Shown in pieces: positions 3,229 through 10,925 of a DNA stretch of 12,054 nucleotides. Source of the stretch: Endomicrobium sp. (GTDB taxonomy: Bacteria > Elusimicrobiota > Endomicrobiia > Endomicrobiales > Endomicrobiaceae); NCBI GenBank assembly GCA_031264425.1, contig JAISDY010000139.1, positions 1-12,054 on the forward strand, given 5' to 3'. Position 1 is the first letter of the stretch, and the number at the start of each line of letters is the position of its first letter. A model generated the notes under the pieces. It saw only the letters and a program-made list of their open reading frames with translations. It was not told where the DNA came from and searched no databases. The translations under genes and the position numbers were made by a program.

Positions 3229-3989
3229 TCACTTGCCAAAATAATGTTTTAACAATCTGATGTAATCTCTGACACTTTCATATTCAACATTTGATATAAA
3301 ATTGTAAAAAGGTTCAATTATACCTTTATTAGCTAATCTTATGGACGATATATAATCGCTCCTTAATATCGGCGGGACAATGGCTATAGGATAACCCGCT
3401 TGGAGTAAAGCAAGATTCATAACAAGCCTTGCAGTTCTGCCGTTACCGTCACTAAAAGGGTGTATAGTCGCAATTCTTTCGTGAAGTTTAGCAGCGTAAT
3501 GAACCGGGTGAAGCGACTCTTTTAGTTCGGGCATTGAACTTATAAACTCTTTCATGAGTTTTGGAACATCACTAATTTTAGGAGGTAGATAATCCGTACA
3601 TGAAATAAAAACTTGTTCAACTCTATATTTGCCGGCTTTGCTTTCATCTATTCTAAAATAAAATAACCTGTGCAATTCAAGAATATTAGATTCTGTAATC
3701 GTATCGTTTCCTGCAAGTTTCTCAAGCAAAGTATAAGCGTCGCTGTGACCAAGAGCTTCGTTAATCTCTCTAACTGGTTTTCCGCCTATAGTGTACCTCC
3801 TTCAATTATGACTTTTGTCTCAGACTCGGTTAAAGAATTGCCTTCAAGCGCATTACTCGTATAAGTAAAACCTATGCGATAATACTCTTGCAACTCTTTT
3901 ATTAACTCTTTGTCAAAAGGGCGATATTTGTCTATCTCCGCTTTTAACTCGTCAACTTCTTGATTTCTGTCTTTATAAATATTGGACAT
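3229..3989 (-). pseudogene. Fic-family AMPylase, broken by a one-base frameshift
   Basis: Fic proteins transfer AMP (or related groups) from nucleotides to target proteins. The catalytic motif is complete in the 3' part: HPFSDGNGRTAR, fitting HxFx(D/E)GNGRxxR. The 5' part carries the inhibitory helix motif SNALEGN, fitting (S/T)xxxE(G/N). The two parts are in different frames. The first frame runs from ATG 3989 (AGGA just upstream; another ATG lies at 4022) to TAG at 3788-3786. The second frame resumes with ACT ATA GGC GGA at about 3792 and reads TIGGKPVREINEALGHSDAY, exactly the segment expected after EGG(T). One lost base at about 3792-3797 explains this; restored, the protein would be about 254 residues. 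It stops at TGA 3231-3229, one base before the ispG ATG. A sequencing error cannot be excluded from one sequence. Confidence 0.85.
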
Positions 3990-4045
3990 ACTGTCCTTTT
4001 GAAAATTTACTCTCTTAAACATACAAACACAACAAACTACTTTAA

Positions 4046-9347: not shown

Positions 9348-9944
9348 TTATTCTTCTCCGAGTTTAAATCTTGCAAATCTCTTTATTACTATATTCTCGC
9401 CTATTTTAGCTATAGCTTTTGTCACCAAATCTTTTATGGTTTCTTTACCGCTTGTGTCCCTCATATAAATCTGGTCGTACAAACATATCTGCCTGTAAAA
9501 TTTCTCAATTTTACCCTCAATGATTTTATCCCAAACTTTTTCCGGCTTCCCTTCTTCCTTAAGCTGAGCTTTGTAAATTTCTTTTTCTGCATTCAAAATA
9601 CTTTCAGGCACTTGTTCGCGAGAAACATATGTGGGAGAAACAGCTGCAATTTGCATAGCTATTTCTTTAACTAAAGCCTGAAAATCTTCAGTTTTTGCTA
9701 CAAAATCCGTTTCACAGTTTACTTCAACTAAAACCCCAAGAGTTCCATTTCCGTGTATATAAGAATGAACTAAGCCTTGTTTTGCAGCTCTTCCTGCTTT
9801 TTTAACAGCAGAAGCCATGCCTTTTTCTCTAAGCCACTGGCAAGCATTTTCAACATTATTATTTGATTCTTTGAGAGCATTGCGACAATCCATTATTCCC
9901 GCGCCTGTCATCTCTCTGAGTTTTGTTATAAGTTCAGTTGACAT
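9348..9944 (-). CDS. tsf: Elongation factor Ts (short form)
   Basis: Guanine nucleotide exchange factor for EF-Tu. The product is 198 residues, the compact form (E. coli has 283), with only one core subdomain; similar short forms occur in Thermus and cyanobacteria. The N-terminal UBA-like domain is seen in [18 protein letters not shown] and WLREKGMA, followed by the EF-Tu-contacting motif [12 protein letters not shown] at about residues 77-88. The C-terminal module has [14 protein letters not shown] and [18 protein letters not shown]. The ATG at 9944 lies inside the end of rpsB, an 11-base overlap, with GGAG in the rpsB tail as its ribosome site, so S2 and EF-Ts are translationally coupled. 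Nothing looks truncated. Confidence 0.97.
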
Positions 9945-10728
9945 TATCTTCTTCTCCTTCCTTAGAAGATTCTTCTTTCTTTTCTTCCTCTTCTTTTGCA
10001 GGTTCTGCGGCGATAACGTCCGCTCCTTCGCCTTCTTTCTTTTCAGTTACGCCTTTTCCTTCTAAAACAGCATCGGCTATAATTGAACAGAAAAGCTTTA
10101 CTGCTCTTATAGCGTCATCATTTCCCGGAATAGGATAGTCAACCAAATCAGGGTCGCAGTTAGTATCGCAAATAGCAACGATAGGAATGTTGAGTTTTCT
10201 TGCTTCTGAAACAGCTGTAGATTCTTCGTTAGAATCAACCACAAACATAAGACCTGGAAGTTTTGTCATATTTTTTAACCCTTCCAAAGACTTTTCAAGC
10301 TTAATTCTCTCTCTTTCAATCTGAGACTGTTCTTTTTTTGAAAGAATCTGGAAAACACCGTCTTCTTTCATTTTTTCTATTTCTTTGTATCTTGCAATAG
10401 ATTTCTTTAAAGTTTCAAAATTTGTAAGAGTTCCGCCAAGCCATCTTTCAGCTACAAAAAAAGTTCCGCAACGCTGAGCTTCCTCTTTTACTGGAACCTG
10501 AGCTTGTTTCTTTGTTCCTACAAAAACTATTTCTTTGCCCTCGGCAACAAGATCTCTTACTACTTTGTAGTTTTTCTTCAATTCTTTAAGGGTTTTTTGA
10601 AGATCTATGATGTGAATTTTGTTCCTAGTTCCAAAAATAAACTTCCCCATTTTTGGATTCCATCTTCTGGTTTGATGTCCGAAATGAACACCGGCTTCCA
10701 GCAAAGCCTTCATTGTAATGTTTGCCAT
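9934..10728 (-). CDS. rpsB: 30S ribosomal protein S2
   Basis: A 264-residue component of the small subunit, located near the ribosome's back, where S1 docks in many bacteria. Family segments are [20 protein letters not shown] at the N terminus, [63 protein letters not shown] and [14 protein letters not shown]. The last 35 residues are an acidic, lysine-containing tail rich in E, K and A, longer than in many S2 proteins and probably disordered. The start is ATG 10728 with AAGGAG six bases upstream. The frame stays open upstream to a TTG at 10824, but that region is leader RNA, not protein. First gene of the operon and probably autoregulated through its leader. Confidence 0.98.
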
Positions 10729-10890
10729 ACTTCTCTCCTTTGGTTTTAACCGCCGTAACGGTTTCCGTTTCAAGACGTATTTTCGTCTCACGGCTTCCAC
10801 AACCTTCCATCTCCAAAACCTCAAAGTTTTCCTCTGAGACCGTTTGGTAAATCCGATTGTGTGATTATTTAAGGTTATGACCCTAAAGAC
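10729..10890 (-). promoter_or_regulatory. Structured rpsB mRNA leader, candidate S2 autoregulatory element
   Basis: About 160 nt between the inferred transcription start and the rpsB ATG. Two structures are directly readable on the minus strand. The upstream hairpin pairs CCAAA (10847-10843) with TTTGG (10817-10813), and CTCAGAG (10838-10832) with CTTTGAG (10826-10820) over a GAAAA loop. Nearer the start, an outer helix GCCGT (10794-10790) and ACGGC (10756-10752) encloses two hairpins: GAGACG (10789-10784) with CGTCTT (10777-10772), and AACGG (10769-10765) with CCGTT (10761-10757). Together these form a three-way junction ending 11 bases before the AAGGAG ribosome site (10740-10735). Alternative pairings exist. 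S2 is known to repress rpsB-tsf through the leader in E. coli; applying this here is an inference. Confidence 0.65.
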
Positions 10891-10896
10891 TGTACT

Positions 10897-10925
10897 ATTC
10901 TATCAAAACCTATAATTGTTTTCAA
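10897..10925 (-). promoter_or_regulatory. Predicted sigma70-type promoter of the rpsB operon
   Basis: Minus-strand -35 box TTGAAA (10925-10920), a 17-base spacer, and -10 box TAGAAT (10902-10897), each one base off or near consensus. The start of transcription would be near 10890. It is the best promoter seen in the window and lies in the largest gap, just upstream of the structured rpsB leader. The rest of the gap toward murA (10926-11022) is AT-rich; I see only a weak TTTCT/AGAAA hairpin and a short T-run, with no convincing murA terminator. Confidence 0.7.

Follow-up and report, generated by a model that had tools for sequence, protein, structure and literature searches.

A leader of the S2-responsive rpsB motif class very probably precedes rpsB-tsf in Endomicrobium and other Elusimicrobiota

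The rpsB-tsf locus and its leader

The window, i.e., the whole stretch of 12,054 nucleotides of Endomicrobium sp. DNA that was analyzed, carries rpsB and tsf on its minus strand, preceded by a leader and a promoter-like site (Table 1). The rpsB leader is a genuinely structured RNA: in sense orientation, 10729-10890 had a folding energy of -51.3 kcal/mol, compared with a mean of -33.5 kcal/mol (sd 3.5) for shuffled sequences (z = -5.1), and this energy was reached by none of 200 shuffles.

Table 1. Features of the rpsB-tsf locus in the window and of the terminator-like hairpins in two loci of family f17
Feature	Positions	Strand	Basis or remark
tsf (elongation factor Ts)	9348..9944	-	downstream of rpsB; tsf start overlaps rpsB end by 11 bases
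rpsB (ribosomal protein S2)	9934..10728	-	Pfam PF00318, E 1.7e-100
rpsB start codon	10728-10726	-	
rpsB leader, 162 bases	~10890 to 10729	-	
Shine-Dalgarno sequence AAGGAG	10735..10740	-	
ACC, proposed pseudoknot strand 2	10742..10744	-	1 base before AAGGAG
P5 hairpin AACCG/CGGTT	10748..10763	-	linker alignment, folding
P4, CCGT (10793-10790) with ACGG (10768-10765), enclosing GAGACG/CGTCTT hairpin	10765..10793	-	
Conserved core of S2 leader (rpsB motif)	10792..10866	-	matches of R1/R2 (the window is one of the rows in both models), covariation
P1 3' strand GGTTGTG, then GAAGCC	10798..10804	-	fold, core alignment
P2 3' strand GTTTTGG	10813..10819	-	core alignment
P3 hairpin	10820..10838	-	fold, core alignment
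Bulge GGU, proposed pseudoknot strand 1	10839..10841	-	complementarity, letter association
P2 5' strand CCAAAC	10842..10847	-	core alignment
P1 5' strand CACAATC	10855..10861	-	fold, core alignment
Promoter-like site, extended -10 (TTGAAA, 17, TAGAAT)	10897..10925	-	consensus match, recurrence in leaders
f17 terminator-like hairpin	L200 479-450	-	
f17 terminator-like hairpin	L201 471-506	+	

A single promoter consensus match in the window is no more than shuffled sequence yields. Of the 65 tabled leaders, 41 had the extended -10 pattern no more than 110 bases upstream of the core, whereas 200 shuffled sets averaged 2.8 such leaders and never had more than 8 (the table omits L143 and L018, a near copy of L017). 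This recurrence makes it likely that transcription starts near 10890, upstream of the whole leader structure. Close to where the transcript presumably begins, a short extra hairpin (10868-10887, minus strand) was predicted in one leader fold. Elsewhere in the window, a Fic-domain gene lies between ispG and rseP (3229-3990, minus strand; PF02661 in the open piece 3229-3729). By eye it seems to be interrupted, as an upstream piece runs into a stop before the PF02661 piece.

The conserved core has three helices

A genus alignment, followed by a set of 54 leaders built by searching, delimited the core at 10866-10792 as an element of three helices, P1 to P3. The genus alignment A4 had 18 rows, and seven leaders that were harder to align were left out (L008, L011, L014, L021, L022, L023, and L055). 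The larger alignment A6 comprised 54 leaders out of 58 matches, after removal of L027 and the near copies L106, L109, and L111; L032, L033, and L049 were unmatched at that stage and are hence absent. For the 53 distinct core rows, 93.6% of the cells were paired and two-sided changes occurred at all 16 pairs, counts that lean toward structure because this alignment was fitted to the model. None of 500 shuffles reached any of the five measures that were applied, and the pairing dropped to 36-51% when the partners were shifted by 1 to 3 columns. The MAFFT alignment of the genus, which was not fitted to structure, was 94.4% paired and had two-sided changes at 8 of the 16 pairs; two of the five measures were matched by 10 and 65 of 500 shuffles, respectively, and the other three by none. 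A mixed genus-order MAFFT alignment was out of register, and no counts were drawn from it. Strong conservation was also seen for unpaired letters such as GAUU, the bulge GU, and GUGGARG.

An earlier note on this DNA had described a two-part hairpin at 10813-10847. This hairpin is conserved and corresponds to P2 plus P3, but it is only the inner half of the longer core, the outer helix P1 having been overlooked.

The region between core and ribosome site is a variable linker

The same note had placed a three-way junction at 10752-10794, and its strand, coordinates, helices, and distance of 11 bases to AAGGAG were all correct. The junction is the minimum-energy fold of the window taken alone, 3.1 kcal/mol more stable than the fold with P4 and P5, and the pair probabilities in the window were 0.76-0.97 for its two disputed helices versus 0.02-0.03 for the fold that the relatives share. 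Nevertheless, two of its three helices failed in the relatives. On 21 genus rows, the GCCGT/ACGGC helix reached a pairing of 64.4%, and one of its pairs was broken in 19 of 20 scorable rows; the AACGG/CCGTT helix reached 67.0%, with two pairs broken in 14 and 16 of 20. Only GAGACG/CGTCTT, which is common to both folds, held up, with two-sided changes in 4 of 5 counted pairs. On the same number of genus rows, the helices of the alternative fold were 100% (P4, CCGT/ACGG) and 92.6% paired (P5, AACCG/CGGTT). The linker alignment (A8) contained 21 of 23 prepared linkers, L023 and L078 being left out. When 26 genus linkers were folded singly, the junction was formed by that of the window only.

As a conserved element the junction was therefore rejected, two of its helices being broken in relatives and the fold being absent from their linkers; in the window itself, it may still form, given its predicted energy. 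It might be the functional element, possibly a feature that arose only recently in this genome, a reading for which its rank as best fold of the window speaks. However, two helices fail already in the nearest relative, L002, whose S2 is 99% identical, and the same letters are able to form P4 and P5, so that we regard this as highly improbable. P4 is kept within the genus, and outside of it the same region is a variable linker. Among relatives, the linker measured 7 or 8 bases in L036 and L027 and more than 100 in L029; being so variable, it is not the core of the element.

Distribution in Elusimicrobiota

An S2 start was found downstream of the element in all 65 tabled Elusimicrobiota leaders. 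Model R1 had matches in 58 of 95 genomes of the class, and model R2 had matches in 67 of 294 genomes of the phylum, with one match per genome. The latter belonged to the genus (29), to other genera of the family (29), to other families of the order (6), to the class (1), and to the phylum elsewhere (2). With strict filters and E 0.01, the remaining 227 of the 294 genomes had no R2 match, yet the leaders of two of them, G040 and G044, were detected in another R2 search (E 3.6e-5 and 0.065). Two R1 matches, at 2359-2415 of the window and at 3037-3110 of L013, were taken as chance.

Of the 31 genomes of the genus in which rpsB was matched, 24 had the leader and G002 had a weak trace of it, whereas six had rpsB without a recognizable leader (loci L020 in G008, L025 in G027, L031 in G028, L034 in G017, L035 in G030, and L037 in G021). 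These six assemblies are small (0.2 to 0.6 Mb, rounded) and 52-85% complete, but the DNA upstream of rpsB is present in all of them, so incompleteness does not explain the missing leader. Its absence fits a loss of control under extreme genome reduction; the leader was retained in G003, an assembly of 0.4 Mb.

Relation to known S2 leaders

The 2009 description of the rpsB motif covers Proteobacteria, Cyanobacteria, and some Firmicutes, and the part of it considered here includes a pseudoknot of J2-3 with a 3' extension after P1, with three pairs in Firmicutes (PMC2704228). The window leader shares with it the long stem capped by P3, a short or absent side stem P2, and the location before rpsB (PMC2704228). 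A pseudoknot of the published architecture may form as well, GGU and ACC of the window being complementary. Mapped from the text description, P1 plus P2 of the window equal the published P1, and the published P2 is the side stem. Two differences are that this part of the description does not mention Elusimicrobiota (PMC2704228) and that the Endomicrobium genus carries the extra P4/P5 linker. The leader is thus very probably, as judged from sequence and predicted structure, the known S2 feedback switch class in a further phylum, one not mentioned in that part of the 2009 description. The suggestion of an undescribed class, made in the earlier note, cannot be upheld, as the architecture matches the published motif (PMC2704228, the part considered). 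In the literature surveyed, the coverage of which was partial, no S2 leader was reported from Elusimicrobiota.

The Rfam search that the note had proposed gave no match of the window to RF00127 (t44), even at E 10, and the gathering cut-off of 44 bits was reached by none of 59 relatives, the best score being 25.1 bits. Membership in the Rfam family was therefore rejected. Among rpsB leaders of relatives, the t44 model matched those of G041 (E 0.0044) and G038 (E 4.66); a third match, in G042 (17.3 bits, E 1.05), scored above G038 but is not at rpsB. Weak Rfam matches of the window, to snoR121 (E 2) and rli42 (E 7.9), were attributed to chance. The t44 model also had matches in two control genomes, including Thermotoga maritima, and one of the two was above the cut-off.

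The leader of E. coli (t44) resembles that of the window in having CACAC before P1, GUGGAGGC after P1, and the GGU bulge before P3. A GGGGU/ACCCC pairing is possible by eye, similar to the pseudoknot proposed for the window, but the internal loop between P1 and P2 is shorter. With filters off, R2 scored the E. coli leader at 17.4 bits (E 0.062 in 51,882 bases); it was missed by R1 and, across 81 sources, by R2 with default filters. The sequence-structure link to the E. coli leader is thus weak, weaker than that to rpsB leaders of Bacillota.

Searches outside the phylum were based on the best 80 rpsB loci listed from named genomes, 73 of which are not titled Elusimicrobia. R2 matched directly before rpsB in 17 of these 73 loci, all of them Bacillota by title or genus name, and 13 of the matches had E <=0.01. 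Matches in L187 and L193 were not directly before rpsB. No rpsB leader was found by R2 in five loci titled other phyla (L133, L142, L173, L174, and L193), and five of the seven Elusimicrobia loci among the best 80 listed had no R2 leader either. Whole-genome R2 searches of three Bacillota gave a match in two and none in the genome of L161. The Bacillota leaders (L164, L147, L176, L161, and others) share the order ACACACG-P1-GAUU-P2-GGU-P3, AUGAA, P1', GGAGGAA with those of Elusimicrobiota. ACC is often found before the Shine-Dalgarno site, and three pseudoknot pairs are possible in 11 of the 16 tabled. In contrast, GGUGC often replaces GGUCC, and the linker is short and lacks hairpins.

A putative pseudoknot next to the Shine-Dalgarno site

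The bulge before P3 is mostly RGU, and the sequence just before the Shine-Dalgarno site is mostly ACY, as exemplified by the complementary triplets GGU (10841-10839) and ACC (10744-10742) of the window. The triplets were assigned by a fixed rule, the last ACN before the Shine-Dalgarno site, which misassigned E. coli and may misassign others, e.g., L021 and L155. In the 65 leaders, the first bulge letter and the third letter of ACY were G-C in 34 cases, A-U in 15, G-U in 5, A-A in 6, U-U in 2, and C-A, A-C, and G-A in one each. The letters are associated (Fisher p = 1.8e-8, 55 rows, G/A vs C/U, kinship ignored). All three pairs are possible in 54 of the 65 leaders, and the first pair is lacking in the other 11. 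Shuffling within four kinship groups gave a mean of 44.2 standard pairs, compared with the 54 observed, and none of 5000 shuffles was as high. On a partial S2 protein tree, the bulge letter changes six times, and starred branches contain only two independent pairs, too few for a sign test. Joint switches of both letters were seen for L107/L110 (inside an AGU-ACU clade with moderate support) and L033/L036.

Proposed mechanism and alternative readings

In E. coli, S2 represses rpsB-tsf via the leader with the assistance of S1; as the operator does not include the ribosome site, the details of the mechanism are described as unclear (PMC10931766, the part considered). For the window, we propose that transcription from near 10890 yields an mRNA with the S2 leader, whose core P1-P2-P3, with its GGU bulge, would form a pseudoknot with ACC. 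Excess S2, perhaps together with S1, would bind the core and stabilize the pseudoknot beside AAGGAG. As ACC ends one base before AAGGAG, we infer that the stabilized pseudoknot would crowd the ribosome site and thereby keep 30S subunits from starting on rpsB. Translation of tsf would fall with that of rpsB, since the tsf start overlaps rpsB, and P4 and P5 would be a variable linker. S2 as ligand, repression upon binding, and the pseudoknot as switch are suggested by analogy with E. coli and by the position of the element. We consider this whole explanation probable and hold it with good confidence. The reading as a ribosomal-protein autoregulatory leader, already favored in the earlier note, is the best supported one in view of the S2 start behind every tabled leader, the covarying core, the S2-operator architecture, and the proposed pseudoknot strand at the Shine-Dalgarno site.

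Two other readings keep the structure and change its role. S2 might act on transcription, on mRNA decay, or by another kind of ribosome occlusion, without a pseudoknot switch. This would agree with the absence of support from the S2 tree, with its two independent pairs on starred branches, with genus leaders such as L010, L012, and L017, which keep the core and lack the third pseudoknot pair, and with the terminator-like hairpin that follows the leader in L200 and L201. However, the three pairs are all possible in 54 of 65 leaders, and in most of those tabled the second strand is located at the Shine-Dalgarno site; hence, we regard a switch without the pseudoknot as rather unlikely. Alternatively, the element could be a conserved structured 5'-UTR that sets mRNA stability or the level of translation and does not respond to S2. 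The published motif has no obvious likeness to the regions of 16S rRNA bound by S2 (PMC2704228, the part considered), i.e., h26 and h35-h37, which speaks for this reading. Yet the element shares its architecture with a class for which a response to S2 in vivo is known from E. coli (PMC10931766 and PMC2704228, the parts considered), and unpaired letters such as GAUU, the bulge GU, and GUGGARG are strongly conserved, as expected of a protein site. A UTR independent of S2 is thus very unlikely, and an S2 autoregulatory leader acting through the pseudoknot remains the preferred reading.

The known range of the S2 leader would thereby come to include a phylum distant from the model organisms, and because the t44 model misses the Elusimicrobiota leader, S2 feedback is probably under-annotated. 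Leaders of ribosomal protein genes have mostly been described as narrowly distributed (PMC7247131, PMC6097659, and PMC4647458, the parts considered). The S2 leader, unlike most of these, spans phyla.

Terminator-like hairpins in family f17

In both leaders from family f17 of the phylum (L200 and L201, distant relatives of the window), a terminator-like hairpin with a T run follows the S2 leader, ahead of the rpsB start; the other f17 genomes had no leader at E 0.01. Such hairpins also arise by chance in shuffled sequences (means of 1.0 and 1.3). In L201, complementarity between the 5' arm of the hairpin and the 3' flank of P1 makes transcription attenuation possible. Both leaders retain a poly(A)-ACC run, though the rpsB Shine-Dalgarno site is over 100 bases away, an indication that the pairing is part of the sensor. 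A tentative idea, against which we still lean slightly, is that one S2 sensor has two outputs in the phylum: the Shine-Dalgarno pseudoknot in Endomicrobia and an intrinsic terminator in L200 and L201, with the 3' flank of P1 as a possible antiterminator. If the f17 terminator is real, a swap of outputs on one sensor becomes testable.
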